From positions 62,001 through 126,000 of IMG/VR virus record IMGVR_UViG_3300042691_037870: a stretch of 64,000 nucleotides of DNA; one strand, given 5' to 3'. The stretch is from a virus. Below are positions 5,286-53,974 of this stretch, one piece after another; the stretch's first letter is position 1; every line of letters starts with the position of its first letter. The position numbers and the translations under genes were made by a program. The notes beneath the pieces were generated by a model that saw only the letters and a program-made list of their open reading frames with translations, did not search any database and had not been told where the DNA came from.

Positions 5286-5648
5286 TTATTTTGCCATGAC
5301 TCCGATATACTTTGTCCCGTTAATGTATATATCTATGAAGCAAAAATCTCTTACTTCTCCAGGTTGGAAATTTACTTCCACCGTTACATCATATTTTCCG
5401 GACTCAGGTACATATGCAGCAAGCTGATCATAAAAAGATCTTTGCAACTGTGCAGTATTTGCTTGAAATTCAAATAACTGTTCTTCTAAGTTTAAACCCA
5501 AACCAGGGAATCCAAGAACTTCACCACGAGTAGTAAATATAATCATACGGATTTTAGTTAAAAGTGCTTCTAATTCACTTGAAGTTTCTAACTGGGTAGG
5601 TCTGTAACTGGGGTCATTAATATTTCTACAATAAAGTTCCTTTAACAT
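5286..5648 (-). CDS. Baseplate wedge protein, gp25-like (GPW/gp25 family)
   Basis: 120 residues, the usual size for gp25. It carries the family pattern: an N-terminal strand, a helix with LLTKIRMIIFTTRGEVLGFPGLG, then a helical section, and a final beta-strand pair ending in IDIYINGTKYIGV. In T4, gp25 starts sheath polymerisation at the baseplate and binds gp6. The T4-type EPR-like turn is replaced by RGEVLG. It is tightly flanked by neck and gp6-like genes in one operon. Confidence 0.85.
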   Translation of the reverse strand: MLKELYCRNINDPSYRPTQLETSSELEALLTKIRMIIFTTRGEVLGFPGLGLNLEEQLFEFQANTAQLQRSFYDQLAAYVPESGKYDVTVEVNFQPGEVRDFCFIDIYINGTKYIGVMAK

Positions 5649-5651
5649 ATA

Positions 5652-6383
5652 TTAGTGGAAGATGAAGAACCAATCTGGTGAGTTTTCATCATCTATTTTT
5701 TGTTTAATTTCATCTAATTCTTCTTTACCTTCATCACGAATAGATGAAGCATCAATCTGAATCCCACCCGGAAGATTAAAAGTAAATGTTCCAAGAATTC
5801 TTGCTAAAGATATTTTTGCTTGAGCTGTCACCCAACGCTGAAAAAACCAATCATCGTATAATTTGTTTTCTTCTATCTTAGAGTATGTCTGAATAAAAAC
5901 ATTTCTTTTAGGATCTCTACCTAAAATCTTTAATCTTTTTGTATTACGATTAAAGTCAAATGAAATTCTTTCAAGAATAAAGGCTTGTGTTAAATCCCAA
6001 TAAGAATATTGAGCAGTTCTAAGAACCAAGTCATCGGATTGAAACGGAGATAAGAATAATTCTGAAGCAAGAAGACGATTATCAGAAAAATCACGGTCAA
6101 CAGTACCAAGTCTACCACCACCTGTTACTTCTTTAACTTCAAATACACTAATTACACAATCAGGTAACAGTATGCTACGATACTTTTTAAACTCAGGATC
6201 TGAAAACCATTTTCTTTCAATAATGTAATATTGTGTTTCAACAGCAGGACCATAATTGGCATAAAACCAATTAAGTGCCTGGTCAATTATACGATTAGCT
6301 TCTCTCTCAGGTACAGAATACGGAAGTGCTCCACTACCTGTGATTTCAGCAGTCATCATATCTATAAGTTCTGCTCTTGTCAT
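5652..6383 (-). CDS. Probable neck protein, gp13-like
   Basis: 243 residues. The N-terminal arrangement (a short helix MTRAELIDMM, then EREANRIIDQALNWFYANYG, then a QYYIIERKW strand and a PDCVISVFEVKEV strand) resembles gp13-type neck proteins of T4-like phages, which begin with a short helix and a 'DRIDEAL.YF' helix. The C-terminal half contains a helix set rich in D/E and W (QRWVTAQAKISLARILG). gp13 proteins join the portal/head to the tail. The assignment rests on pattern resemblance, so a different virion role is possible. It lies 3 bases upstream of the gp25-like gene. Confidence 0.55.
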   Translation of the reverse strand: MTRAELIDMMTAEITGSGALPYSVPEREANRIIDQALNWFYANYGPAVETQYYIIERKWFSDPEFKKYRSILLPDCVISVFEVKEVTGGGRLGTVDRDFSDNRLLASELFLSPFQSDDLVLRTAQYSYWDLTQAFILERISFDFNRNTKRLKILGRDPKRNVFIQTYSKIEENKLYDDWFFQRWVTAQAKISLARILGTFTFNLPGGIQIDASSIRDEGKEELDEIKQKIDDENSPDWFFIFH

Positions 6384-6386
6384 ATT

Positions 6387-6629
6387 TTAAGAAAGTACAA
6401 CAATCTCTGTTGCTCCTATTTTTTTAGCTTCACCCTTTGCCCATTTTACAGCATCAGTATACATCATTGCAGAAGGAGTGTAAACATCCATTTCTGTTTG
6501 ATGACCTTGTAGTTTAAATGCCCACATACCTTTACCACTTGGTTTTTTGCCATGTGCGCCTTGATACTTATTAGTATTTACTTCTACCCCTTCATTAAGA
6601 AATTCTTCAAATAATTGTATATGTTTCAT
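6387..6629 (-). CDS. Small capsid-targeted (internal head) protein candidate
   Basis: 80 residues when started at the second in-frame ATG (6629), which gives MKHIQLFEEFLNE and aligns with the neighbouring gene's MKYIKLYENFLNE; an alternative ATG lies two codons upstream. This N-terminus matches the T4 capsid-targeting sequence (MKTYQEFIAE), with a prohead-protease type LxE site at residues 11-13. The remaining mature part is small, basic and Gly/Lys-rich, with a C-terminal alpha/beta look (DAVKWAKGEAKKIGATEIVVLS). It resembles T4 internal proteins in size and arrangement. The function after injection is unknown. Confidence 0.65.
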   Translation of the reverse strand: MKHIQLFEEFLNEGVEVNTNKYQGAHGKKPSGKGMWAFKLQGHQTEMDVYTPSAMMYTDAVKWAKGEAKKIGATEIVVLS

Positions 6630-6643
6630 AATCATTTATTTTT

Positions 6644-7384
6644 TTAATCCCAAACTTCTGTATAAGTTCCACCTACAATCATAACACCTTGTTTCCAATC
6701 AAAATCTAAACGATCCTTCTTAAAGAAAAAGTGATTCTTAATAATATTTTCAGTTTCTTCTTCAGTTTTCCCAAAAGCAATATTAAGATCCTTAATTACA
6801 TATGCCTTATCATACGATTTTGTAATATGTGTAGATGCATGTCTACCAATACCTTGATCTCGTGTATTGATTGTTTTATAATTTGCTGTTGAAGGTTTCC
6901 AGAATTGTAAGATTCTTCTAATTAAATCATCATTAAGAGGCTGTTTTTGAGAAAATCTAATCCAATCTTTAATCTCTTTTGAAATATTTGATTTTCTTGG
7001 GTTACTTAAGTTAAAACTTTTATAGTTATTGATATAATCAACTCCAGCAACACCAATACCACCCATTGCTTCTTTAGGAGAAGCATTACTGATAACTTCA
7101 TAATATGTAACAGATGCTTTTATATACATTCCGCTAATATTACAATTTTGTAAAATCTTAGCACGTTTAGGATCTAACCAACTCCAGTCATCAGTTTGGT
7201 AACGATTAGAAACTCCAACATATCCATTTTTGTAATCATAGTACTTATCATTCTTACCATTCATTTGGTAAGAAACGTTTCTGAAATTGGAAAGCATTGC
7301 TTTCTCAAGATCATTGGCTAACATCATACCTTCTGGATTTTCAGCCTCATTAAGAAAATTTTCGTATAACTTTATGTATTTCAT
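6644..7384 (-). CDS. Capsid-targeted protein of unknown function
   Basis: 246 residues. Residues 1-13 (MKYIKLYENFLNE) match the T4-type capsid-targeting sequence with a predicted cleavage after Glu13. The rest is a soluble alpha/beta protein with many aromatic and Asn residues and no motif I can name. A conserved-looking RDQGIGRHASTHITKSYDKA stretch carries two histidines and might be catalytic, but that is speculative. Its ATG overlaps the stop of the amidoligase gene by one base, so it is coexpressed with it. Confidence 0.65.
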   Translation of the reverse strand: MKYIKLYENFLNEAENPEGMMLANDLEKAMLSNFRNVSYQMNGKNDKYYDYKNGYVGVSNRYQTDDWSWLDPKRAKILQNCNISGMYIKASVTYYEVISNASPKEAMGGIGVAGVDYINNYKSFNLSNPRKSNISKEIKDWIRFSQKQPLNDDLIRRILQFWKPSTANYKTINTRDQGIGRHASTHITKSYDKAYVIKDLNIAFGKTEEETENIIKNHFFFKKDRLDFDWKQGVMIVGGTYTEVWD

Positions 7385-25619: not shown

Positions 25620-25961
25620 TTAACGAACTGCACCGCTCATAACTGGTACATCTTGTACAGTGCCTTGTCTCATATCGCCATCAGTGCGATTAAAACCAGC
25701 AATGTTTGAAAATTGCTCACGAATCTTATTCATAGATTCTTTAATGTAATTTTCACAAGCATTCATATAACCTTCAGCTGTATGTTCTTTATGCTCATCT
25801 TCATTCCAAGCAATAGCTTCATTCATTGCCATTTCCATACATTTGTCTACAGCTTCACACATTTCTTCAGAAAGTGCGGTTGGTTTTGTTGCAGTGATTT
25901 CATCGTGTCCGACTACATCAGTTTCATTTATAAATTGTTCGTACGTAGGAATGTGTTTCAT
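25620..25961 (-). CDS. Capsid-targeted small protein
   Basis: 113 residues. Residues 1-13 (MKHIPTYEQFINE) match the T4 capsid-targeting sequence with an IxE site, close to the IAE of T4 internal proteins. The mature part is acidic and helical, with Met and His (CMEMAMNEAIAWNEDEHKEH). No function is known. It neighbours two other capsid-targeted genes. Confidence 0.65.
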   Translation of the reverse strand: MKHIPTYEQFINETDVVGHDEITATKPTALSEEMCEAVDKCMEMAMNEAIAWNEDEHKEHTAEGYMNACENYIKESMNKIREQFSNIAGFNRTDGDMRQGTVQDVPVMSGAVR

Positions 25962-26003: not shown

Positions 26004-27155
26004 TTATACAGTTTCTTCTTTCTTTTCTTCTTTGTCTTCTTTGCCTTCACCACCCACAATTTCATTAATCACCCCATGAATTACAAGTGCAAGACCGCCG
26101 TATTTAAGAACTTTAATTATGATACCAAAACCAGGTATAACAATTCCTAATGATTTTTCAGCAACAGACTGTAAATCGAGTAAGCCTTTTTTGAATTGGG
26201 TTTCTGCTAAATAACCTGCAGCAATACCTACAAGTCCCGCAATTACAGGAAATTCAAAAGGGCCAGGTGCTGATGCAACTTTTGTCATAAATACTGAAAA
26301 CGCATTTAATCCTTTTTCAGCCTTAGCGGCTACAGCATCTTCAATTTTGTGAAATGCTGAAAACGGTGGAGTATGAGCTAATTTAGAAAGAACAGATGAA
26401 ATAAAAGGAATATGAATACCGCCTTTAGCTTTTCCATGTTCTTCTTCAAAAAGTGCAAGTTCTTCTAATACAGATTCCAATGTATATCCTTCATAAAGAG
26501 TTTCAGCAGCTGCATAATAAAATGCGGATTCAAAAGCTTTAAAGTAATCCTCTGATTCCTCAGTAATTGCAGCCTTTTCTCCAGATTTTTCAATTGCGTC
26601 AATAAAACCACCACCTAACCATTTTACAGAAGAACTTGCCATTGCTTGTAAGTTTTTAAGTTCTTCAATAATTCTCTTTCTTTTATCAGAATCTTGAAGA
26701 AGAGGTTTTATTTTTTCACGAATCTTTTCTTTTGCTTTTTCAACAGCTGCTTTAGTTTGATCTTTTGCAATATCCCAGGCTTTTTTGATAACCTCTTTAA
26801 TTTTACCTAAAACCATTTTAAGAGGTGCTAAAAGATTTCCTCCAAATTTTAAAGCTGCTTGTGTTTTATCACCGAGTTTCTTTACGTAATCTTTTCCCTT
26901 TTCTTTAATCTTTTCTTTTGCATTAATTGCAAGCTGTTTAAACTTTTCAGCAAAAGAACTTTCATTAATGTCACTTGCTAAATCAAAAAGTTCATTAACA
27001 TATCCTTCATTAATAAAATATGATAAAGACTCCTTTTCTTCGATTGAAGCACCTGCAACATCAGCACAAGCAATTAGTAAGGCTTTCTTACTTTCTTGCT
27101 CATGATGAACCGAGTAACCTTCAAGAAGAAAGTCGTTATAAGTTAATAAAGACAT
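26004..27155 (-). CDS. Capsid-targeted Lys-rich helical protein with hydrophobic C-terminus
   Basis: 383 residues. Residues 1-12 (MSLLTYNDFLLE) match the targeting motif. The mature protein is very helical and Lys/Glu-rich (KEKIKEKGKDYVKKLGDKT; KAKEKIREKIKPLLQ), with hydrophobic helices near residues 260-370 (FPVIAGLVGIAAGYLAE; IVIPGFGIIIKVLKYGGLAL) and a final acidic KEDKEEKKEETV tail. Packed Lys-rich proteins can neutralise DNA; the hydrophobic C-terminal helices could insert into a membrane. Both ideas are inferred. Confidence 0.6.
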   Translation of the reverse strand: MSLLTYNDFLLEGYSVHHEQESKKALLIACADVAGASIEEKESLSYFINEGYVNELFDLASDINESSFAEKFKQLAINAKEKIKEKGKDYVKKLGDKTQAALKFGGNLLAPLKMVLGKIKEVIKKAWDIAKDQTKAAVEKAKEKIREKIKPLLQDSDKRKRIIEELKNLQAMASSSVKWLGGGFIDAIEKSGEKAAITEESEDYFKAFESAFYYAAAETLYEGYTLESVLEELALFEEEHGKAKGGIHIPFISSVLSKLAHTPPFSAFHKIEDAVAAKAEKGLNAFSVFMTKVASAPGPFEFPVIAGLVGIAAGYLAETQFKKGLLDLQSVAEKSLGIVIPGFGIIIKVLKYGGLALVIHGVINEIVGGEGKEDKEEKKEETV

Positions 27156-43565: not shown

Positions 43566-44504
43566 CTACTTGGTAACACTCCACTCAGGATTATCTTTTA
43601 AAGTTTCTTTAATATCATTATTGCGATACTCATTTAAAAGATCAATTGTTTCATCTGTTAATTTTTCTTTAAACCAATCTTCATATATTTTACGATACAC
43701 AAGAGCCATAACACCAAAAATTGGTCCAGGTTCTGTGTTCATCTCAAATACATAAAGTTTCCCATCTTTGGATTCTGCTACATCAACAGCATAAAAATCT
43801 AATCCTTTATGAGCATCAGAAAAATAACTACAAAGTTTAATTATGTTTTCTGCAGGTTTACCGTGTGTAAGAATGTAAGCAAAGTTTGTTTCTTCATTAG
43901 CTTTCTTTTTTGAAATATCTTTAGTGGATTCATCAAGAGGTTCTCGTTTACACCACTGAAGTATTTCTCCTCTCCATACAAAAAATCTATGTTCACTCTT
44001 AATGTCAATCTTTTCAGAAAACAAGGAAAACTTACTCAAATCAGCTTCATCAAGTTCTTTCTTATCTTTAAAAACTTGAATACCTAAACCGCTATGACGA
44101 TTGTCAGGCTTAGCAACAATAGGAAAATTAAGTTTGCTAATTTCTTTAGGATTAGATACCGAAGGCACCATGTAATTGCTGTCTTTGTGTTTTTCGGTAA
44201 ATGCTGATTTTGAAGAAACATTTTCACGAGCGTCCGGCTTATTATAAACTTGCTTTAAATCAATTTCACCGCTTTTAATTAATTGCTCAAGCGCTGTTAC
44301 ATCATAATTAAGAACAGGAAATTCGTGAGAAATGTTTTTTGTTTTTCTTGTGATTATTTTCCAATAATCTTTTGCTTTAAACTCGGAACCCGTGATATGC
44401 GAATCTTCAAGCTTTTCTGCTCGAGTAATCATCACTTTTTTTAGTTGTGATTTTGTAGATTCATTTAAAAAATCCTGAAAAGGAAGTAGGTTCTTGGTAA
44501 ACAT
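43566..44504 (-). CDS. Capsid-targeted ATP-grasp protein
   Basis: 312 residues. N-terminus FTKNLLPFQDFLNE (residues 2-15) carries the targeting motif. The mature protein has ATP-grasp blocks: FPIVAKPDNRHSGLGIQVF (K132, G139, G141 loop) and YAVDVAESKDGKLYVFEMN (D241; E254 and N256 metal site), followed by TEPGP. Such enzymes join a carboxylate to an amine or thiol. As a packaged protein it may modify a host or phage protein after injection. Substrate unknown. Confidence 0.75.
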   Translation of the reverse strand: MFTKNLLPFQDFLNESTKSQLKKVMITRAEKLEDSHITGSEFKAKDYWKIITRKTKNISHEFPVLNYDVTALEQLIKSGEIDLKQVYNKPDARENVSSKSAFTEKHKDSNYMVPSVSNPKEISKLNFPIVAKPDNRHSGLGIQVFKDKKELDEADLSKFSLFSEKIDIKSEHRFFVWRGEILQWCKREPLDESTKDISKKKANEETNFAYILTHGKPAENIIKLCSYFSDAHKGLDFYAVDVAESKDGKLYVFEMNTEPGPIFGVMALVYRKIYEDWFKEKLTDETIDLLNEYRNNDIKETLKDNPEWSVTK

Positions 44505-44520
44505 TGATGTGTTTATGTTT

Positions 44521-44955
44521 TTATACAGTTTCTGCTGAACTCATATATGAAATAACATTCTTAGGATTTTCAAGTTTATTCATACATGTGCTAATCATTC
44601 CTTCGTAATCAGTTGGCACAGAGTAATCAGAGATTAAAGAAGATTTTCTGTAAACTGGGATAATGCTTGCAGTGTTTTCCATTGGAGAAATTTCCACAAT
44701 TTTAAATACTGATAGTGCTAATCCGTGTTTATCTTCAAAAACCTTTGCAATATGATCTCCTGGTACGATTGGAACCAGCGCTTGTTTTTCTTTTTCTTTA
44801 TTTAAGAAAACTGCAGGTTTTGATTCACCTTCATTTCCTAATATAGCGGTAGCTCTTCTAAGATCCGCGAATTTCATTGTGCTTTCCCATAGACAAGGTA
44901 CTCCTGATCTTGTTCTTGCAATTTTAATTTTCTTCTCTTTAATTTCGGTTTCCAT
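44521..44955 (-). CDS. Hypothetical protein next to DNA-modification genes
   Basis: 144 residues, basic N-terminus (METEIKEKKIKIARTRSGVP) and an alpha/beta middle. No motif recognised. Sits 2 bases after the hydroxymethylase-like gene and 16 bases before the ATP-grasp gene, so may serve either system. Confidence 0.55.
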   Translation of the reverse strand: METEIKEKKIKIARTRSGVPCLWESTMKFADLRRATAILGNEGESKPAVFLNKEKEKQALVPIVPGDHIAKVFEDKHGLALSVFKIVEISPMENTASIIPVYRKSSLISDYSVPTDYEGMISTCMNKLENPKNVISYMSSAETV

Positions 44956-44957
44956 AG

Positions 44958-45809
44958 TTATTGAATAAAAAAGTATTTGGTTAATATTTGTTTTGAAATT
45001 TCTTGTGTTATTTTTTCACCAGATTCTACTAAAGAATCTACATCGGAAATAAATTGTTTGCCTGCTGATGTTAATTCCATTTCATTATTACTTAATGTAA
45101 ATAGAGGTTCACGAAGCAAAAACATAATTGGCTCTTTAACTTTTTCTTTTACGATCTGATCCGCTAATTCAAAATGTCTTTCATAAAAATGAATGTTATC
45201 AGCACAATGATAATAAGTACCAAGTTCCAATTCAGTATATTTATCTCTAAGCAATTTCCACATAGTTTGCTGTACAAATGCAAAGAAAGGAGCGTCATAA
45301 GATAACCCATAAAAAATATCGTTAGATCTCATTTGTACTTTCATATTAAGTTTATCATTCTTAATCCAAAAGTTAAGATATATTGTACAAACGAAATCTT
45401 TATTACCTTTATACTGAACTGAAGGTCTACTTACAAAAGCGATTGCTTGCCTAGTATTCTTATCATTCAGTAATGAATCAAGCGCCCATTGTAATTGCTC
45501 ACCAAATAACATAAATCCATAGTTAGAATTGATTTCATTATTTTCATCAGCAATATTTTTCCAAAAAGATGAAAAATGATTAATGTAGTCAATGTTTCTG
45601 TCTCGCTTTAAATACCAAGACATTTCACCAAGAAAATATTTAAAGTTAAAAGGTCTAACCTCAAAGTCAGGAATTGCAAACAGTGGATTAATCGTTAATC
45701 TTTCCATTTCCAATTCTTTAACCTTTAATCCTCTGGGTGCAGAAACTGAGCCTTGTGTTTCAATCTTATTAATTAATTTGTGGTATTCTGTATTAAGATT
45801 ATTATTCAT
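44958..45809 (-). CDS. dCMP hydroxymethylase-like (thymidylate synthase family)
   Basis: 283 residues, thymidylate synthase fold: catalytic Glu62 in LGEMSWYLKRD, catalytic Cys141 in DFVCTIYLNFW, RSND at 161-164 and an H-x-Y-type NIHFYERH. In thymidylate synthases the residue after RSxDxxxGxxx is Asn (dUMP binding). Here it is Asp172, the change known from phage dCMP hydroxymethylase (T4 gp42). So it most likely makes 5-hydroxymethyl-dCMP. The enzyme overlaps a dNMP kinase gene. Confidence 0.75.
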   Translation of the reverse strand: MNNNLNTEYHKLINKIETQGSVSAPRGLKVKELEMERLTINPLFAIPDFEVRPFNFKYFLGEMSWYLKRDRNIDYINHFSSFWKNIADENNEINSNYGFMLFGEQLQWALDSLLNDKNTRQAIAFVSRPSVQYKGNKDFVCTIYLNFWIKNDKLNMKVQMRSNDIFYGLSYDAPFFAFVQQTMWKLLRDKYTELELGTYYHCADNIHFYERHFELADQIVKEKVKEPIMFLLREPLFTLSNNEMELTSAGKQFISDVDSLVESGEKITQEISKQILTKYFFIQ

Positions 45810-46365
45810 TTAGTAGTTGTTTTACTTGATTAATGATACTTTCTTTAGACACATACGAATCACCTTCATTTACTTTAATTGCGAGTTTATGTATAATTTT
45901 TGAATCTTTAAAAGCTTTCATAAAAACTTCTAATTCAGCTCGCTTATCATCAAGTTTTGCAGAGTATGATTCTCCGTCATCTTTCTTTACAATAAATTCA
46001 GGATCTGCATAAAGATAAACAAGATACACATCAGGATCTTTATGAAATTCATATTCTTCTTCAAGTTGCATAACCCAATTTTCAGGGTTTGAGTTACGAT
46101 ACAGGGAACCGTAAACCAACTCTCCAAGGTGTGCACGATTCCATATCATAAGATTATTTTGTTGATAACGACGGGACTTTGTTACACGGTAATTTTCAAA
46201 TTCCCAATTAAACGAATCTTTTTGATATGTGGTTTTATCTTCATTAGTGCTTCCTTTGGGAAATGACCAATGTCTTTTAATTATGTTAGGATATTCAGCA
46301 GAAATAGCATTGATTAAAGAATCTTTACCACAACGATCTTGTCCTTCTATTATAAGTAATTTCAT
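45802..46365 (-). CDS. Deoxynucleoside monophosphate kinase
   Basis: 187 residues with P-loop IEGQDRCGKDS (residues 5-15), then SFPKGSTNEDKTTY and a WNRAHLGELVYG segment (DR[YH]-like of thymidylate kinases). It overlaps the hydroxymethylase-like gene by 8 bases, so it is probably the kinase that lifts modified dCMP to the diphosphate, as T4 gp1 does. Confidence 0.8.
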   Translation of the reverse strand: MKLLIIEGQDRCGKDSLINAISAEYPNIIKRHWSFPKGSTNEDKTTYQKDSFNWEFENYRVTKSRRYQQNNLMIWNRAHLGELVYGSLYRNSNPENWVMQLEEEYEFHKDPDVYLVYLYADPEFIVKKDDGESYSAKLDDKRAELEVFMKAFKDSKIIHKLAIKVNEGDSYVSKESIINQVKQLLNE

Positions 46366-46399
46366 ATAAATTATATCATAAAAAGTTAATAAAGTTTCA

Positions 46400-47614
46400 T
46401 TAAAATAAAACTTTTGATCGCATTTTATTTTCAGCGTAATCGACTTTTTGTGTTACATTATTCTGTTTTACAAAGTCACCACCAAATTCAGTAATTTCAC
46501 CTTTAATAAAACGTATAACTTCAGTAGTCCAATCACTTGCGGTTTTTACAGGAACATTTTGGCAAATGTGATTCCAATGACCACCTTGTAAATCAAAATC
46601 ATGAGGTAATCCCATTAAGTGCATTGCTTCACGAACAGTTATACCTCTTTCACCATTAGGGTGTACAATCCCAGAGTTCTTAGCAATAATTGCATTTGTT
46701 GCTTCATTAAAAAGTAAAGGACTTGCATCCCATACACCTTTACCATCTTTAGCTTTTGCTTCTGCTCTTTCACATAATCTCCAAACATCACGTTTTTCGT
46801 TTTCTTTACCCCATATAATAGCATCATTTATCCAGCCTTCACGCCAAATTAATTGTAAAACTGTCATTGCTGGAGATGCAATAGCATCTTTAATATCGTA
46901 GTTTTTATGTTTTAAGAACTGAATCCATTGATTATCTTCCAATGCGCCTAAACCAAACCCTTTATCCATTAAAGTACAACCTTCAGGTATTTCTTCAAGA
47001 TAATCTTTTAGTAAAGGTGCTTCGCGTTTATGATAACCTAAAATAGGAGCTTCACTGTCTTTCCAGAAAAAGTAAAAAGAACGGTGTCTGTGTTGTGGGA
47101 TACCGTGAACGAATGTATCAGTTTTAATTAAAGACAATGAATAACCATTTCTTTTACCAATTTCTTTCAATCTTTCAACCACTCCAGCACCCATAGAAGT
47201 ATAAAGTCCTGGTGCATTTTCGCCCCAGAATACTTTAGGTTTAACATGTTCTAAAACCAATTCAGCTGATTTGTACATCCATTCATTTTGAGCAGCATCA
47301 GAACCTCTTGCTTTTTCGCTTGATCCGTTATTTGAATTAAGCATTGAAAGACCTGCACAAGGACAAACAGCAGATACAAAATCCACATCTTCAAAAAGAG
47401 CTTTTTGATCTTCGGGTAATACGTTTTCTTCGCCTTCAATTACAATGTATGGTGTTTTCTTAAAATAGTTTGTAGCGTGAGAATCATTTCCTGCGAATGG
47501 CGGATATGATAAAAAGAATGCAGGATCATGTCCTACTATTTTTGAGTTAGCCACTGTCATCCCACCTATAAGAGGTACGATTGATCCAAATTTAATTTTG
47601 TTTTTCTTTGCCAT
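46400..47614 (-). CDS. DNA cytosine-5 methyltransferase-like
   Basis: 404 residues. PCAGLS (85-90, with Cys86 as nucleophile), ENA (132-134), QHRHR (174-178) and a late CQNVPVKTA match C5-MTase motifs IV, VI, VIII and X. The order is normal. A methyltransferase beside a hydroxymethylase, kinase and glycosyltransferase suggests that this phage has both methylated and hydroxymethylated cytosine, or that this enzyme has been recruited to another base modification. Target unknown. Confidence 0.85.
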   Translation of the reverse strand: MAKKNKIKFGSIVPLIGGMTVANSKIVGHDPAFFLSYPPFAGNDSHATNYFKKTPYIVIEGEENVLPEDQKALFEDVDFVSAVCPCAGLSMLNSNNGSSEKARGSDAAQNEWMYKSAELVLEHVKPKVFWGENAPGLYTSMGAGVVERLKEIGKRNGYSLSLIKTDTFVHGIPQHRHRSFYFFWKDSEAPILGYHKREAPLLKDYLEEIPEGCTLMDKGFGLGALEDNQWIQFLKHKNYDIKDAIASPAMTVLQLIWREGWINDAIIWGKENEKRDVWRLCERAEAKAKDGKGVWDASPLLFNEATNAIIAKNSGIVHPNGERGITVREAMHLMGLPHDFDLQGGHWNHICQNVPVKTASDWTTEVIRFIKGEITEFGGDFVKQNNVTQKVDYAENKMRSKVLF

Positions 47615-47616
47615 TT

Positions 47617-49011
47617 TTAAAATAATGATTTTGCTTGTAGTTCGGGTTTTTTTGGTGTTTTGCCTGAAAGATCTGCTAAGTCAGGTACTCGTGCAATTTC
47701 TTCACTAAACCCTTTTATCATTCTAACATTTATGCCTGCTCGCTCTAAGAATGGGTTAATTACATCACATAAGAATTCACCTTTGCGAACACCAAGTAAG
47801 AACTTTAATTGTAATTCTTTTACAAGTTTAATTCTTAATTGAGGGTTTGCCTCCATTTCTTCAATTTTAGCAAACATTTCTTGTGGAGTTTTTACTCTTA
47901 AGTAGTGATCTTTTGGTAATGTAGAAAATTGAGTATCATAATCAGGATGAAAGAAAGGAACTACTCCGATCTTTAACATTTCTGCGTATTTACTTGTTAC
48001 CCAATCAGGGCGAATAGGAATAATTAATGTATAGCGTGTATCTTTAAATGTAGCATCAATTACGTCAGGTGTTTTATACCCTTGAAATTGTGTATAACCT
48101 TTAGTGAATCTTTCATCCCACTTACCATAAATTTTAAAGTTATCGCTGCCTGGTTGTGATAAGATCCATTTTTTAAGAGCTTCTAAACGGTAATCAACTT
48201 CAGCTTTTCCATAAGCTGATTGCATTGCTACGATTGCAAACTTAGTATTACGTTCAGTATCAGGTGGGATGATAGTTTCACCTATCATATTTAATCTTTC
48301 AATACCAGAGTATGTAAGTTTAAGTGTTTCACTGATTTCTTTACCCTTTGAAGGTTCTGGGTAAGTATCATAATGTATAAACTCAATTGTGTCATTATAT
48401 TGAGCAATACATTCACGAGGTCCATTTACAAGATCTCTCCATTTTTGTTTTTTCTTGATGTAACGTGGGTCTGTCATTACCATAAAGTATGGCAGTTTTG
48501 ACATATTTAAGTAGTGAACCATTGGAGCGCTGTAGATTTGTGTCATATCCAATGCGCCTGTCATTCTACTTGGATCTTTAATACTTGGAACAATTCCAGG
48601 TATGTTAACTAAGGTTAAACCTTGTGAAGCAAAACAGATACCAAAGTCAGGTTGTTCTAAGTGTTGAATTTTATCCCACAAATCTTTGTATCTACCTTGC
48701 TCTTCTGGAGTATGAGGTAATAGTTCGCCGTCTTCACCAGCACGACGCCCAGGCGGTACTTGTACATTAAATTCAGTATAGATATCTCTTAAAACTCCTC
48801 GAGGATCAAAAGCAACTTTTTCATCAAAGGTTAACTTTTTCCAATCACTTCTTTGCATAATCCAAACTTCTGAGATATTTGGATTTCTTACTAAACCGTA
48901 AAAAAGTTTGTAATATTCCGAAGTACCATCGGAACGTTTTACATTTTCTTTACGAAATTTCATTGCAGATCCTAAAGGTGAAACTGCGATTTTTAAATTT
49001 TCAGTTTTCAT
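47617..49011 (-). CDS. GT-B type glycosyltransferase, possible DNA glucosyltransferase
   Basis: 464 residues. The C-terminal half has the GT-B look: RNTKFAIVAMQSAYGKAEVD, YGKWDERF and IIPIRPDWVTSKYAEMLKIG with a following VVPFFHPDYDTQ. The gene directly follows the C5-MTase by 2 bases. By position it may be the enzyme that glucosylates hydroxymethyl-cytosine, as T4 alpha/beta-gt do, but sequence likeness to those is not obvious. Host-surface or protein targets are alternatives. Confidence 0.55.
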   Translation of the reverse strand: MKTENLKIAVSPLGSAMKFRKENVKRSDGTSEYYKLFYGLVRNPNISEVWIMQRSDWKKLTFDEKVAFDPRGVLRDIYTEFNVQVPPGRRAGEDGELLPHTPEEQGRYKDLWDKIQHLEQPDFGICFASQGLTLVNIPGIVPSIKDPSRMTGALDMTQIYSAPMVHYLNMSKLPYFMVMTDPRYIKKKQKWRDLVNGPRECIAQYNDTIEFIHYDTYPEPSKGKEISETLKLTYSGIERLNMIGETIIPPDTERNTKFAIVAMQSAYGKAEVDYRLEALKKWILSQPGSDNFKIYGKWDERFTKGYTQFQGYKTPDVIDATFKDTRYTLIIPIRPDWVTSKYAEMLKIGVVPFFHPDYDTQFSTLPKDHYLRVKTPQEMFAKIEEMEANPQLRIKLVKELQLKFLLGVRKGEFLCDVINPFLERAGINVRMIKGFSEEIARVPDLADLSGKTPKKPELQAKSLF

Positions 49012-49058: not shown

Positions 49059-49733
49059 TTATTTAACTTTGCTATTAATATCAGAATAACTTTTTCTTTG
49101 TATTATCAAATAAGGGTTAGTAATTAAGTATCTGTTCTTATTCTTTTTGTCATCACGAATAAGTTTACGAAGAGCACGATCAGCAAAATACCCACGTTCA
49201 AATAGATTTTTCATTCTATCATAGATATCTTGAGTATTGCGAATGATGTATGATTGAGAATTCCAAACGCTGACAGCAATATCTAAACCAGGCAAATATT
49301 CTTCTTTTTTATCATTTTTTGGATTTCTTAATCCACCTAAATAAATAAGATCCCAATCATCGGTTGTATTAATTGCTTTACTTATTGCTTCGTTAAAACT
49401 TTTAGGGTCTTTAATTTGAAAGTCATCTTCAAGCATGATAGCAATTTTAGTACCATCTGTTCCATATTCTTTTAAGAATTGTTCAATACAACGGACATGA
49501 GTAATACCACAACCAAATAATCCTTTTTGTGCTACTTCATCTTTTGTCACATGTCGATACTCACGATTAAGATAAGATTCCAATTCATCTTTTGGGTAAT
49601 CTTTCCAATGAGTTGACATAAAGTATTCATAATTTTTTATATCAGCTGCTTGTAATTCTATATCGCATTCATCTCTACGGTCTTGACGAGACGCAAGATT
49701 CATTATGTAATATTTACTTACTTCTTTTAACAT
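49059..49733 (-). CDS. Glycosyltransferase family 25-like
   Basis: 224 residues from ATG 49733 (MLKEVSKYYIMNLASRQDRR); the longer frame to 49787 overlaps the upstream gene and is rejected. YIMNLASRQDRRDEC at the start, GLFGCGITHVRCIEQFLKEY and AIMLEDDFQI (E-D-D metal site), then DWDLIYLGGL fit GT25 (LPS biosynthesis) enzymes. Probably transfers galactose or a related sugar. Confidence 0.8.
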   Translation of the reverse strand: MLKEVSKYYIMNLASRQDRRDECDIELQAADIKNYEYFMSTHWKDYPKDELESYLNREYRHVTKDEVAQKGLFGCGITHVRCIEQFLKEYGTDGTKIAIMLEDDFQIKDPKSFNEAISKAINTTDDWDLIYLGGLRNPKNDKKEEYLPGLDIAVSVWNSQSYIIRNTQDIYDRMKNLFERGYFADRALRKLIRDDKKNKNRYLITNPYLIIQRKSYSDINSKVK

Positions 49734-51127
49734 AATTCTTTTATTAAGTTTGTTTCTTTTAATTTGTTTCTCCAGTTGGTTACCCACCCGTTAACATCAA
49801 AATGTTCTTGCATTTCTTTCAAGATAGCAAGTCTTTCTTTTTCATTCTTATCGTAGTATTCAACTCGCTCACGTAATTCATCGGCATTCTTAACGGTTAG
49901 CTTTTCTTGAAATTTAAGAGGGATCCAAATACCTTCAGGGTCATACATAAAATCAAAAATGGGTAATACTCCAAAATAAAGGTATTGAATATGACGATAA
50001 GTTAATCCGCCATTTGCTGAAACGTTTCTTGAAATAAAAGCAGTTTTACATTTCTTAAGAACATTCATATATTCACCGTTTGGCATAAAGTCGCCACGGA
50101 AATTAGGATGTGCTTCAACTTCTTTACCTAAAGCATCAAAAGTTTCTTTATCCATTCCATAGATTAAACTTAACTTAAAATAAAGTTCTGCGCCTGGGTA
50201 TGAAAAATCTTTAAAGAAATCTCTCCAAATCCACTTTCTTGCACCTTTATCATTTAATAAAGATCCTGCAAAGAAAAACGGAATTTTACCTCGTGAATCA
50301 AATTCATCAAGTAAGTTTTTCTTTTCAGGTTTAATGTTTTGCCAATGTGGTTCATAAACAAGATGTTGTAATTCACTGATTGGAGATGCATGAAGATTTC
50401 TTAAATGCCTTTTATCATCAGTAAAGTACCAAAATTTATGATTAACTTTTTTGTACTCAAAAAATGGTATTGCAGCAGAAGGATCCATAATCATAATATG
50501 AACTTTTGCATTATACATTTTTGAAACATGCTCCACGGTTGATAGCATGATATTCTTATACATGTATCTAAATGCAAGTGGGGAAAATCCTTTTGCAGTG
50601 ATACTAAATAATCTGTCATTAGTTTCACGAATTGCTTCAAGGACTTCTAAATCATCATCATCAAATGAATCAAAATAATCGTTAAATAAACCTTTAAGTT
50701 TTGGGTGTGTTGATAGCGGATTAAAAGGTAACATCAAGTTGTGATTATCAATTATAATGATAGCATCAAATTGAGGTTCTTCTTTAAAGAAATCAATAAT
50801 ACATTCATCAATTTTGTTTTGATTATGTTCGTCTGATGTTTCTAATTCTTTCTTGCGAAATAGGTTACCTGATGCAGGATCTTTAAATATGCTATATTCA
50901 CCTTTGTTTAAACGATAAACATTGGTTAAACCAAAAGCTTCTATTGATTTTAACCCACCTTCAAAAAAGTAATAGATGTTATACTTTTCTTTCAGAATTT
51001 CCACAAGAGGAAAAACATATCCGTATGTATATTCACGTGTTTCAATTTGTGAAAGTGTAATTAAAAGATTCTTTTTGTTAGGATCGTTTTCAACAAAGTT
51101 TCTTTTTTCAAATTTGAATTTTTTCAT
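49727..51127 (-). CDS. Putative glycosyltransferase (GT-B)
   Basis: 466 residues. N-terminal Rossmann-like start (NLLITLSQIETREYTYGYVF) and a C-terminal YRHIQYLYFGVLPIFDFMYD segment typical of the sugar-nucleotide domain of GT-B enzymes, followed by a helical tail. No DXD motif is essential for this fold. Acceptor unknown. Overlaps the GT25-like and GT32-like genes. Confidence 0.6.
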   Translation of the reverse strand: MKKFKFEKRNFVENDPNKKNLLITLSQIETREYTYGYVFPLVEILKEKYNIYYFFEGGLKSIEAFGLTNVYRLNKGEYSIFKDPASGNLFRKKELETSDEHNQNKIDECIIDFFKEEPQFDAIIIIDNHNLMLPFNPLSTHPKLKGLFNDYFDSFDDDDLEVLEAIRETNDRLFSITAKGFSPLAFRYMYKNIMLSTVEHVSKMYNAKVHIMIMDPSAAIPFFEYKKVNHKFWYFTDDKRHLRNLHASPISELQHLVYEPHWQNIKPEKKNLLDEFDSRGKIPFFFAGSLLNDKGARKWIWRDFFKDFSYPGAELYFKLSLIYGMDKETFDALGKEVEAHPNFRGDFMPNGEYMNVLKKCKTAFISRNVSANGGLTYRHIQYLYFGVLPIFDFMYDPEGIWIPLKFQEKLTVKNADELRERVEYYDKNEKERLAILKEMQEHFDVNGWVTNWRNKLKETNLIKELC

Positions 51128-51918
51128 AAGTACTGACTAATTAACCAAGTATGTGAACTTTTTTGTGGGTTTTCTAAAATTTCTTTTTCAGTATACAGGT
51201 TTACATCTTTAAGATTTTGGGAATCGTATAAATGAACACTGTATGTATTAAGTGTAATCTTATCAGGTCTAAATTGATGAAACAGTTCTTCTATTTTATA
51301 ATGACTATATGGGTAAAAGAAATCCGACTTTACAATTTCAAAAGTACCTGCAAGTTCTGGATCTTTACTTAAAGTTCTATGTACTCTTACACTTAATTCA
51401 TCCCAGTATTTATCTCTACCTTTAGAACGAAAGTCTTTCCACATACCCAACCAAGTCTTTAAGTATTTTGAGTTAGGCGGCGCTACTATTACACCATTAC
51501 CCATTGTCATTTTACGATTACTTAAATCACCTACAATATGAACATTGCGTTTAAGTAATGGGTCAAAATTCTTAACAGTAATTGTATCAAAATCACAATA
51601 TACACCGCCTTGTGAAAGTAAAAGCTGTATACGAAACACATCAGAAATATGTGCTGGGTGATGTAATGTATTTCCAAAAATGCTTTCTTGAGGTTGTACT
51701 ATATGAAGTTTACAGTACTTACTTGCTCTTTCCCAATATTCACCAGTAGGCATTTCATTGGTAAAAAAGTTAATTTCATAATCAGGGTTATGAAACGCAA
51801 AAGACTTTACAGCTATATACCGCATAAGATCCCACTCAGTAGATCTTTTGCTTTTTTGATTATAGAAGTAAATAAAATGTCCTTTTTTCGATATTTTTAT
51901 ATTGTCTGTGAATAACAT
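51124..51918 (-). CDS. GT32-like glycosyltransferase (DXD)
   Basis: 264 residues. SDVFRIQLLLSQGGVYCDFD with Asp109-x-Asp111 (DFDT) is the GT32/capsular transferase signature, after a DYEINFFTNE strand. Initial IPFIFYFYNQ-like segment is not a signal peptide. Suggests transfer of a hexose to a growing glycan. Confidence 0.8.
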   Translation of the reverse strand: MLFTDNIKISKKGHFIYFYNQKSKRSTEWDLMRYIAVKSFAFHNPDYEINFFTNEMPTGEYWERASKYCKLHIVQPQESIFGNTLHHPAHISDVFRIQLLLSQGGVYCDFDTITVKNFDPLLKRNVHIVGDLSNRKMTMGNGVIVAPPNSKYLKTWLGMWKDFRSKGRDKYWDELSVRVHRTLSKDPELAGTFEIVKSDFFYPYSHYKIEELFHQFRPDKITLNTYSVHLYDSQNLKDVNLYTEKEILENPQKSSHTWLISQYL

Positions 51919-51933: not shown

Positions 51934-52530
51934 TTATATATACGAACCTAAATTAAAGTAGATAGGTTTATAAACAATTTTAAAGTTTTTTATGATATCA
52001 CGATGTGCTTCATGAAAACTTAAAGCTGCATTTAATCCAAACTCGCTATCTTCATGTATAATTAAAGTATCTTCCTCAGAATTAAACTCATGTTCAATTT
52101 GAGAAAAAGCATAGTTGTATAAATCTGGAGAAGGCTTACGACTTACACCTTGATAAACATCTGAACCTATAAGTTGAGAAAAATGATCTGACAGTTTGAG
52201 TTTTTCTAACATTTCATAAATAACATCATGAGTAGTATTTGATACTATGATATGTTTTTCAGAAGGATGAAACTGATTCTTTAAAACTTCAACATCTTTC
52301 CAGTATTTGCTTAAATAGATTTCGTTCTTATTTTTTTTAACTTCAAGAATTTCTTCTGAAGTAAACCCATGTTCAGCCATGTACCCGTTAGAATTTGCAT
52401 AAAGTTTATCAAATTCTTTAGGTGTTAGTTTAATGTCTTTAACTTGTTGTAAAGCATACTTGTATGATGAAAATATCGCATATCTTGTTAGTACGATAGT
52501 ATCATCCCAATCATAAAAATTCCATTTCAT
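51934..52530 (-). CDS. HAD-like phosphatase
   Basis: 198 residues. Motif I FYDWDDTIV (Asp7 and Asp9), motif II-like IIVSNTTHD, a lysine near 130 (SRKPSPDL) and motif IV-like DTLIIHEDSEFGL. Length and layout match small HAD phosphatases. Overlaps the nucleotidyltransferase by one base, so likely acts on a sugar-phosphate or nucleotide-sugar intermediate. Confidence 0.8.
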   Translation of the reverse strand: MKWNFYDWDDTIVLTRYAIFSSYKYALQQVKDIKLTPKEFDKLYANSNGYMAEHGFTSEEILEVKKNKNEIYLSKYWKDVEVLKNQFHPSEKHIIVSNTTHDVIYEMLEKLKLSDHFSQLIGSDVYQGVSRKPSPDLYNYAFSQIEHEFNSEEDTLIIHEDSEFGLNAALSFHEAHRDIIKNFKIVYKPIYFNLGSYI

Positions 52531-53210
52531 TATACGTATTCCAATTCTTCTCGGCTTGTGATATCAAACCAATGCATATTAAGTGGATGCACGCCTCGTG
52601 ATTCGCCAAGGTTAAACAATTCAGTAATTTCATATTCTCCTCTACGAGAAGGCTGTAATTCTTTTACTTTTTCTATCATATGTTGATTAAACATCATAAA
52701 GCCAACAAAGAATCTGCCCTCATCATAAAGATGTGGTTTTTCAATAATTGTGTTATCATCTTCTACATATGATAATCTGAGGTTTTCTTTACTCTTGGTA
52801 AAAGTTTTATAAGTAGCAACACAATCGTGAGATTCACCTGTAAAGTCAATTAATCCATCATAGTAATTATCACCAAATAAGACAATAAATTTTTCTTTAA
52901 CTTTATTTACCCAAGGAAAAAGTGCAACTGCTGTTCCATACTTATCTTCAGGTTGGTGATCAATTTCAATTGATAGCTTATTAGTTTCATTTAACTGATA
53001 GTCTTTAACTAATGTTTGTGAAATTTTTTCTACTTCACGATTAATATCAGCACCAAACTTTTCATTGGTTGTAATGTAAATAGTACGAATACCGTTTTCA
53101 ATACAAAAACGAATATTCCACTCGAGTAAAGATTTTTTCTTAAAGACGGTAAGAACCTTATTTCCACCGTATCTTGTTGCGGAGCCGCCGCAGAGAATAA
53201 TGCCTGTCAT
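52530..53210 (-). CDS. Nucleotidyltransferase (sugar-1-phosphate type)
   Basis: 226 residues. The signature GIILCGGSATRYGGNKVLTV (3-22) is that of NTP-transferases acting on sugar-1-phosphates or phosphocholine. IVLFGDNYYDGLI carries the metal-binding Asp. Part of an ordered kinase-transferase-HAD trio (53207, 52530, 51934), each overlapping the next by a few bases. The combination resembles phospho-alcohol activation (LicA/LicC-type) in capsule clusters. Confidence 0.8.
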   Translation of the reverse strand: MTGIILCGGSATRYGGNKVLTVFKKKSLLEWNIRFCIENGIRTIYITTNEKFGADINREVEKISQTLVKDYQLNETNKLSIEIDHQPEDKYGTAVALFPWVNKVKEKFIVLFGDNYYDGLIDFTGESHDCVATYKTFTKSKENLRLSYVEDDNTIIEKPHLYDEGRFFVGFMMFNQHMIEKVKELQPSRRGEYEITELFNLGESRGVHPLNMHWFDITSREELEYV

Positions 53211-53974
53211 AAAATTTTTAAAAGTATTTGAAATTCAGCGTATCTTTGATAGTAAACGATAAAGTTTTTCTTTATGTAAGGAAACATACGAATATAATTT
53301 GCAATCATCAGTAAATGAATTAACCTAAAGATTTCTGGGTATTCATTTTTAGGTACTAATTGTGAAAACTCAAAAGTTTTCTTCATATCATTAAAGTATA
53401 TGTTTTGGTAAAACTTGGCAATGTCTTGTAACCAAGATGACCACATGCCTTCTTTATAGATAGGATCTATCAGTACTAAACGATCACCAGATACCAAGAT
53501 GTTTTCCATTGTAAAGTCACCGTGAGATGTACTTTTAAAAAGATCAAAATCTTGTGTATACTTTTTTAGAGTATCGTAATATTTTTGTAAAAGATCTAAT
53601 TCGTCTTTCTCAAAAACATCAGTATTCTTGTTAATTACATCTTTAAGATAATTAATGTAAGTTGTAAATGAAGGGATTTCTTTATCAGACTGTAGATTTG
53701 CGCATACATTAATTAACTCAAAAACTTGTGGTAAATGATAATCTTCAATTCTTTCAGCATTATCAATGTATTCCATTAAGTAACCCCATCTGCCAGGTTC
53801 TTCATGCCATTCAATATTACGAGGTGCAATTATAGAATCTTTAGAAGCTATAAGTTTAAGATGATTCATTTGTTCTTTCATAAATGAAATTCTTGCAGAA
53901 TCATTTGTGTACTTATAAATTCTATCATCTCTCATTACGAATAATTCAGATGTATAGCCTATATGTTTTTTCAT
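53207..53974 (-). CDS. APH/choline kinase-like phosphotransferase
   Basis: 255 residues. Brenner motif H151-G-D153 in STSHGDFTMENILVSG with Asn158, and a metal-binding Asp170 in LVLIDPIYKEG. N-terminal lobe has YLMEYIDNAERIEDYH as a hinge. Fold of aminoglycoside phosphotransferase and choline kinase. Linked to the transferase by 4-base overlap, so it probably phosphorylates the compound that is then activated. Confidence 0.8.
   Translation of the reverse strand: MKKHIGYTSELFVMRDDRIYKYTNDSARISFMKEQMNHLKLIASKDSIIAPRNIEWHEEPGRWGYLMEYIDNAERIEDYHLPQVFELINVCANLQSDKEIPSFTTYINYLKDVINKNTDVFEKDELDLLQKYYDTLKKYTQDFDLFKSTSHGDFTMENILVSGDRLVLIDPIYKEGMWSSWLQDIAKFYQNIYFNDMKKTFEFSQLVPKNEYPEIFRLIHLLMIANYIRMFPYIKKNFIVYYQRYAEFQILLKIL

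Follow-up and report, generated by a model that had tools for sequence, protein, structure and literature searches.

Cytosine C5-methyltransferases (C5-MTases) are thought to find DNA containing 5-hydroxymethylcytosine (hmC) closed to them, so the existence of a family of C5-MTase-fold proteins found for the most part in phages that also encode a deoxycytidylate (dCMP) hydroxymethylase calls for explanation. One such protein is encoded in the stretch of 64,000 nucleotides analysed here (the window), which comprises bases 62001–126000 of the 126,447-base virus record IMGVR_UViG_3300042691_037870 from IMG/VR, itself a fragment. Its gene lies in a block of four, encoding in order of transcription a GT-B glycosyltransferase, the C5-MTase-fold protein, a P-loop kinase and a member of the thymidylate synthase (TS) family of the hydroxymethylase type. 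All four open reading frames (ORFs) named in a preliminary description of the window were confirmed; the C5-MTase and GT-B genes, said there to follow the others, in fact precede them in transcription since the block is on the minus strand. The block is likely, in our view, to be an operon for cytosine hypermodification, in which a hydroxymethylase, a kinase and a GT-B enzyme are joined by a dedicated C5-MTase-fold enzyme. Operons of the T4 type for making and glycosylating hmC are already known; what is new here is the C5-MTase-fold partner.

Distribution of the C5-MTase family

In IMG/VR, two scans turned up 130 loci that encode members of the C5-MTase family (62 and a further 68, the second scan keeping the best 80 of 554 relatives), which form 69 clusters at 90% identity. 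A hydroxymethylase gene is present in the fetched locus of 44 of the 69 clusters, on the same strand in all 44. Where at least 7 kb is available on both sides it is found in 16 of 26 clusters, and the chance of at least 16 is about 2e-7 if the gene is placed randomly in a 100 kb genome (0.16 per cluster). The Dcm-type control loci, which are small prophage-like contigs and not size-matched, contain no hydroxymethylase (0 of 27). As a second control, 10 annotated phages that encode canonical C5-MTases were searched, and all three of their TS-family matches have Asn177 and His147 (TS numbering); a base-rate control by way of a structural gene yielded 5 loci only and was left out. Every contig of at least 100 kb in the two scans carries a hydroxymethylase (10/10: G002, G004, G005, G008, G009, G010, G011, G018, G023 and L172), G004 and G008, like G009 and G010, appearing to be near copies.

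A search of 84,980 bacterial and archaeal genomes found only 10 loci of the C5-MTase family, all in fragmentary assemblies; a hydroxymethylase gene lies close by in 8 of the 10. The family is virus-restricted, and its position beside the hydroxymethylase is no accident. Records G007 and G012 (175 and 110 kb) encode hydroxymethylases with 51–54% identity and have no C5-MTase of the family; the C5-MTase family appears to need the hydroxymethylase, and not the reverse. Searches of whole records account for some of the clusters in which the fetched stretch lacks a hydroxymethylase.

Among the papers listed by a literature search, none links a C5-MTase family with dCMP hydroxymethylase; a previous survey by Iyer (2013), which compared base modification across phages, may mention such neighbours.

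Two tandem C5-MTase-fold paralogues are present in three related loci (L007, L008 and L016), where a GT32 glycosyltransferase and the kinase–hydroxymethylase pair come next, and tandem copies also occur in L028, L139 and L142.

Catalytic centre and pocket of the C5-MTase-fold protein

The structural model of the C5-MTase-fold protein (pLDDT 88.9) aligns with C5-MTases along the greater part of the protein, with Z scores of 25.2 for M.HaeIII and 24.5 for CmoX (8yf3). The catalytic residues Cys86, Glu132, Asn133, Arg176 and Arg178 are kept in all 73 family sequences. Positions were mapped to M.HhaI numbering by profile–profile alignment to 11 canonical enzymes. Val13, Leu15, Ser36, Tyr37, Ala87 and Gln352 of the window protein align with Phe18, Gly20, Glu40, Trp41, Gln82 and Asn304 of M.HhaI, respectively. 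In all 73 sequences Phe18 is replaced by Val or Ile, Gly20 by Leu, Glu40 by Ser or Thr, Gln82 by Ala and Asn304 by Gln, and the canonical signature (F.G.GG of motif I, Glu of motif II, PCQ of motif IV and GN of motif X) is changed throughout. The 11 canonical control enzymes have G.GG in every case and the Glu, Gln and Asn residues in 90% or more; Mycobacterium Rebeuca, with its split gene, does not form part of the motif alignment. The family shares with canonical C5-MTases such as M.HaeIII, M.HhaI and Dcm the fold, the catalytic Cys, the Glu, both Arg residues and the Q.R.R motif, and differs from them by five uniform changes in the pocket and cofactor site.

In the structure of CmoX, Phe stacks against the adenine, Glu binds the ribose, and the transferred group is touched by the residue in the place of Asn304 (PMC12783734). 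Gln82 and Asn304 are described as common to all C5-MTases; trimming both allows M.HhaI to transfer bulky groups, and trimming Gln82 to Ala results in less methylation (PMC10666283). The natural changes therefore hit the very pocket residues that were altered by hand in M.HhaI for bulky-group transfer. Because these residues are changed in all 73 sequences, the family is predicted to have a natural opening near C5 together with an altered cofactor site. The proteins of the cultured cyanophage S-TIM5 and Pseudoalteromonas phage XG4 share the family signature (PLxGG, PCAGLS or VCSGLS, and QNVP), and gp301 of Bacillus phage G has CPCSGLS and AQGVP.

An ordinary enzyme dependent on S-adenosylmethionine (SAM) that methylates C5 of residual cytosines, or of host DNA, might have acquired the same pocket changes by drift or by tuning of its specificity. 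The fold and the full set of residues for covalent catalysis agree with such a role, and both Asp60, kept in 61 of the 73 sequences, and the aromatic residue kept at the place of Trp41 leave SAM binding possible. Plain cytosine may also remain in the DNA of these phages, given that 16 of the 19 records searched yielded no dCTPase-type gene. However, positions conserved in canonical enzymes, including two reported as common to all C5-MTases (PMC10666283), are uniformly changed in this family, and drift would leave the tight link with the hydroxymethylase unexplained. We consider an ordinary methyltransferase unlikely, if still a serious contender. The preliminary description was right to flag the C5-MTase gene as odd, but its reason, that hmC blocks C5 methylation, assumed an ordinary SAM-dependent enzyme, whereas the pocket is altered and the family is tied to the pathway. 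It is more likely that the protein is part of the modification route than that it contradicts it, because the altered-pocket family accompanies the hydroxymethylase pathway across many phages.

The adjoining GT-B glycosyltransferase

The GT-B protein scores 20.8 bits with Pfam Glyco_trans_1_2 (cut-off 25), and a sequence search of the PDB was nearly silent. Its AlphaFold2 model (pLDDT 81.8) has T4 DNA beta-glucosyltransferase (BGT) as the top match in both structure searches, with a Foldseek E value of 1.9e-8 and a Z score of 20.9 (4.3 Å over 312 residues); the best non-DNA enzyme has a Z score of 16.8 and T4 alpha-glucosyltransferase (AGT) one of 15.9. Relatives of the GT-B protein adjoin the C5-MTase gene in other contigs and in phage XG4, and one adjoins a TS-family gene of the Asp type in Enterococcus phage Planchet. 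On the basis of its modelled fold, the protein would probably glycosylate hmC in DNA.

The nearness of glycosyltransferase genes to a hydroxymethylase gene could be coincidental if their products decorate virion or host-surface molecules, and the presence in the same island of several glycosyltransferases with an epimerase, an aminotransferase and an acetyltransferase (Pfam assignments) is reminiscent of surface-glycan clusters. For the GT-B protein adjoining the C5-MTase, the lead of BGT as the top fold match by 4 Z units and the recurrence of the gene beside a C5-MTase or an Asp-type TS elsewhere, for example in XG4 and Planchet, make such a role decidedly unlikely. A surface-glycan role for the remaining glycosyltransferases stays open.

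The neighbours of C5-MTase relatives include AGT-like and TAGT proteins, UDP-galactopyranose mutase, nucleotidyltransferases, dCMP deaminase and the PRA-PH pyrophosphohydrolase. That quite different glycosyltransferases stand alongside suggests that the C5-MTase step is independent of the sugar. In one locus of a six-locus cluster (L055, 2933–3955) it is the mutase gene that adjoins the C5-MTase, a hint at galactofuranose as a DNA sugar. The Planchet region (L090, 4260–10788) contains a kinase, the Asp-type TS, a protein annotated as dUTPase and three annotated glycosyltransferases close by; no match to the C5-MTase family was found in that region.

The TS-family enzyme and its kinase

The best PDB sequence match of the TS-family protein is T4 dCMP hydroxymethylase (E 1.5e-19), the best thymidylate synthase giving 1.9e-14. 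Asp172, which the preliminary description had already singled out as being of the hydroxymethylase type, aligns with the position of Asn177 in TS, and Thr142 with that of His147. The computed alignment pairs Asp172 with Asp179 of the T4 enzyme. The window protein also has Cys141, Glu62, Trp83, Asp164 and Gly168, and its SNYG loop is as in T4 gp42. Among 69 relatives, assembled from the C5-MTase clusters, a hydroxymethylase query and the genome collection, all have Asp at TS position 177, Thr at 147 and Asp at 169, and all 66 that could be scored have Trp at position 80. A set of 39 distinct TS-family proteins, partly the same as the 69, likewise has Asp at 177 throughout, and His147 is present in E. 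coli TS and three true TS controls. In the MetaGPA study, E. coli TS positions 177 and 147 separate modified-cytosine contigs from others (PMC8670742). A canonical thymidylate synthase (E about 1e-90) is encoded by a second gene in G004, G006, G018 and G023, and two further records, G039 and XG4, have ThyX, together 6 of the 12 records searched; neither a second TS nor ThyX was found in the record containing the window, which is a fragment. By its residues, the window enzyme looks like a folate-using dCMP hydroxymethylase of the T4 gp42 type. A true thymidylate synthase was considered and rejected, as Asn177 and His147 are both replaced and relatives have separate TS or ThyX genes.

The reported overlap of the kinase and hydroxymethylase genes was found, the end of the former running 8 bp into the start of the latter, and the two genes are adjacent in closer loci as well; the label dNMP kinase stands less firmly. 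The protein scores 18.5 bits with Pfam Thymidylate_kin (cut-off 27) and matches the PHROG thymidylate kinase (2.5e-9), with no weighty match in the PDB. It is probably a kinase of (hydroxymethyl)deoxynucleoside monophosphates, the weakest label of the four.

Glycosylated hmC is the best reading of the phage DNA: the suggestion of hmC, perhaps glycosylated, gains support from the residue tests, the structural comparison of the GT-B protein and the separate TS or ThyX genes of relatives. The TS-family protein might alternatively be a thymidylate synthase or make 5-methyl-dCMP, the phage DNA then containing normal cytosine or 5-methylcytosine (5mC). The change of Asn to Asp is by itself reported to turn thymidylate synthase towards dCMP with 5-methyl-dCMP as the product (PMC8670742), and the S-TIM5 homologue has an intermediate set, Asp177 with His147. 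However, Thr147 and the SNYG loop are those of T4 gp42, the DNA-glucosyltransferase-like neighbour needs a hydroxyl handle and relatives have separate TS or ThyX genes, and we regard this alternative as improbable. The S-TIM5 protein (L088, 4763–5599) is annotated as ThyA and may be a dCMP-modifying enzyme; S-TIM5 also encodes a member of the C5-MTase family.

The window protein keeps the equivalents of Trp80, Asp169 and Gly173 of TS, which are presumably folate contacts. The protein of phage RB69, which we equate with the 5-hydroxy-dCMP synthase reported from Mosigvirus (PMC13390438), has Ala80, Asn169 and Val173 instead, this being a single reference sequence. RB69 and its relatives, with 5-hydroxy-dCMP synthase and arabinosyl cytosine, resemble the window in combining a TS-family enzyme with sugar-nucleotide genes and glycosyltransferases, and such enzymes do occur in phages with sugar-synthesis clusters (PMC13390438). 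A synthase of this type, with the sugar linked straight to C5, is nevertheless very improbable here and was rejected, since the residues lost in RB69 are all kept, a criterion derived from that one sequence.

C-terminal tails of the C5-MTase and GT-B proteins

Among the 88 ORFs of at least 150 amino acids in the window's record, two end in [LFIVM]F, and they are those of the C5-MTase-fold protein (KVLF) and the GT-B protein (KSLF). The T4 DNA polymerase ends in SLDFLFG; such C-termini bind the gp45 sliding clamp and are interchangeable among gp43, gp55 and gp33 (PMC2988020), and T4 AGT also binds this clamp (PMC13216743). Two tail patterns were chosen after inspection; 42 of the 72 C5-MTase tails across the family fit one or the other, compared with at most 170 of 1069 ORFs of the same loci. 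Polymerase and C5-MTase tails agree, for example, in G002 (KKLF and KKLF), G004 (TQLF and KNLF) and G023 (SLLSF and KLFNF). These features are suggestive of clamp binding by the C5-MTase and GT-B tails.

The family B DNA polymerase is itself split into separate ORFs, some of them many kb apart, in G002, G004, G005, G006, G007, G018 and G021 (L234–L247 and L261).

Proposed pathway

From its residues, the TS-family enzyme would hydroxymethylate dCMP with methylene-tetrahydrofolate, and the overlapping kinase, whose part is the least firmly assigned, would phosphorylate hydroxymethyl-dCMP towards the triphosphate that is then polymerized into DNA. As its fold implies, the GT-B enzyme would add a sugar to hmC in the DNA. 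The upstream phosphatase, nucleotidyltransferase, small kinase and further glycosyltransferases could provide the sugar donor, with possible lengthening of the chain. The C5-MTase-fold enzyme, whose association with the pathway is observed and whose chemistry we infer, would then act at cytosine C5 in the DNA of the same phage. It probably does not carry out a simple methylation, because the covalent catalytic apparatus is kept and the cofactor and base pocket are rebuilt; its substrate may be a cytosine already substituted at C5, or its donor a different one. Together with the GT-B enzyme it may ride the sliding clamp to newly made DNA, because the short hydrophobic C-termini resemble that of the phage DNA polymerase.

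Enzymes of the M.HhaI type can add or remove a hydroxymethyl group in vitro and couple nucleophiles to hmC; a literature search on this chemistry found nothing on point. With well under even confidence, we put forward that the C5-MTase-fold family works on hmC itself, the Cys–C6 adduct serving to exchange, activate or extend the hydroxymethyl group (or a non-methyl donor being used) in an action that, like that of the DNA glycosyltransferase, is coupled to replication through the sliding clamp. Action on the DNA of the hmC pathway, whether on hmC or with a different donor, is the best explanation because the family mostly travels with the maker of hmC, keeps the Cys–C6 chemistry and has a predicted roomier site near C5. 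If the family does act on hmC, it would represent a new chemistry of modified DNA with a clear use as a labelling tool, and a further layer in the hiding of phages from restriction and CRISPR.

Besides the retention of Asp60 and of the aromatic residue noted above, several observations weigh against the proposed operon and its C5-MTase step. When 26 C5-MTase records were searched in full, a hydroxymethylase was found in 7, in one of them only as a fragment at the contig edge, and not in the other 19, all shorter than 93 kb; in two records of the latter group (76 and 90 kb) the C5-MTase is nevertheless a close one. The kinase matches lie below the Pfam cut-off. No dCTPase-type gene of the PRA-PH family was found in the window's record, a fragment, and other dCTPase families were not searched; replacement of cytosine by hmC may thus be partial. 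The polymerase and C5-MTase tails are of the same class in only 6 of 10 lineages (permutation 0.039), with classes set by hand after the tails were inspected and G005, which also agrees, uncounted. They disagree in G018, G021, G009/G010 and XG4, and the XG4 C5-MTase has no such tail.

Of the closest known systems, the hmC pathway of T4 (gp42 dCMP hydroxymethylase, gp1 kinase, BGT and AGT) is alike in several respects: the active site is of the gp42 type, a DNA-glucosyltransferase fold is adjacent, a kinase belongs to the operon, and T4 AGT is known to bind the gp45 clamp (PMC13216743). In contrast to T4, the window also has a C5-MTase-fold enzyme dedicated to the pathway, together with several glycosyltransferases and genes for the sugar donor; no PRA-PH gene was found in the fragment, and the GT-B protein is only 16% identical to BGT. 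The 5hmC carbamoyltransferase systems of MetaGPA (PMC8670742) are similar in that a TS-family enzyme with Asp177 and a residue other than His147 feeds a second hypermodification enzyme. In those systems a carbamoyltransferase stands where the window has the C5-MTase-fold partner; a Pfam scan of 20 window proteins gave no match to such an enzyme.

CmoX, the DNA cytosine C5-carboxymethyltransferase of cyanophage S-B43, is likewise a C5-MTase-fold enzyme used for hypermodification (PMC12783734), with 8yf3 among the top matches of the window protein (profile E 5e-6) and a changed Asn304 in both families. An enzyme of that type can nonetheless hardly be what the window encodes and was rejected: CmoX needs Arg at Asn304 and has SPPC as its search motif (PMC12783734), whereas the family has Gln and CPCA in 73 of 73 sequences and a dCMP hydroxymethylase as its partner, and the CmoA model TIGR00740 matched none of 13 records, most of them fragments, with a positive control. 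By its motifs the C5-MTase-fold protein is thus predicted to be neither a canonical C5-MTase nor a CmoX. Tet_JBP dioxygenase, which would indicate the TET-linked route from 5mC, also gave no match in 13 records, in a search whose control was likewise silent.

Neighbouring genes

The transcribed order of the island is GT32-type glycosyltransferase, second GT-B, GT25-type glycosyltransferase, the first GT-B, C5-MTase, kinase, TS-family protein and a protein of 144 amino acids (Table 1). Just upstream of the glycosyltransferase genes are those for the HAD phosphatase, the nucleotidyltransferase and the small kinase-like protein. The 144-residue protein keeps its place downstream in closer loci that also have the C5-MTase family, and gave no match in searches of Pfam, PHROG and NCBIfam.

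Table 1. Genes and short features of the block and its surroundings, in window coordinates (L numbers are related loci; aa, amino acids).
Feature	Position	Strand	Evidence and remarks
144-aa protein directly downstream of the hydroxymethylase	44521..44955	-	54-72% identical copies in L002-L008, L016
TS-family protein, dCMP hydroxymethylase-type (T4 gp42-like)	44958..45809	-	283 aa; Pfam Thymidylat_synt E 2e-21 and residues
P-loop kinase, probable (hm)dNMP kinase	45802..46365	-	187 aa; weak matches; homologue in XG4
C5-MTase-fold protein, catalytic residues kept, cofactor/base pocket altered	46400..47614	-	404 aa; Pfam DNA_methylase 2e-17
C5-MTase-fold C-terminal tail KVLF	46403..46414	-	possible sliding-clamp peptide (putative)
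GT-B, probable hmC-DNA glycosyltransferase	47617..49011	-	464 aa; fold nearest T4 DNA beta-glucosyltransferase
GT-B C-terminal tail KSLF	47620..47631	-	possible sliding-clamp peptide (putative)
GT25-type glycosyltransferase, same operon	49059..49787	-	Glyco_transf_25 5e-9; relative in L004
Second GT-B glycosyltransferase	49727..51127	-	Glyco_trans_1_2 3.7e-6; relatives adjoin C5-MTase in L002-L008, L016
GT32-type (DXD) glycosyltransferase	51124..51918	-	Gly_transf_sug 7.6e-12; relative adjoins tandem C5-MTases in L007, L008, L016
HAD phosphatase, probable nucleotide-sugar precursor step	51934..52530	-	HAD_2 6e-14
Nucleotidyltransferase, probable synthesis of nucleoside diphosphate (NDP)-sugar or NDP-polyol	52530..53210	-	NTP_transferase 6.5e-13
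Small phosphotransferase-like kinase, overlaps the nucleotidyltransferase gene	53207..53974	-	TCAD9 28.2 bits, APH 15 bits, both below cut-off

Cultured phages and other observations

XG4, S-TIM5 and G are cultured phages with the C5-MTase family or a distant relative of it, and the question raised by the window is testable there. XG4 has in a row the hydroxymethylase (100–804), HAD-like, nucleotidyltransferase-like and two glycosyltransferase-like genes and the C5-MTase (5363–6580), the labels of the HAD, nucleotidyltransferase and second glycosyltransferase genes being read by eye from sequence starts; its kinase homologue is at 157642–158121. Within 16 kb of phage G (L091, 4304–19495, gp301–gp319) are the distant C5-MTase relative, two annotated alpha-glucosyltransferases, a sugar nucleotidyltransferase, an HAD phosphatase, a kinase and an Asp-type TS.

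An N-terminal leader resembling MKHIxxFxxF[LIV]NE is found within the first 30 residues of 26 of the 162 ORFs of at least 80 amino acids in the window's own record, G000, and of 7 of 1306 in related loci. Examples in the window are the ORFs at 6387–6635, 6644–7384, 25620–25961, 26004–27155 and 43566–44504, and most of the others are in L020. The leader resembles the capsid-targeting leaders of T4 that are cut by the prohead protease. By this analogy, many proteins may be packed into the head of this phage, among them the ATP-grasp protein encoded beside the block.

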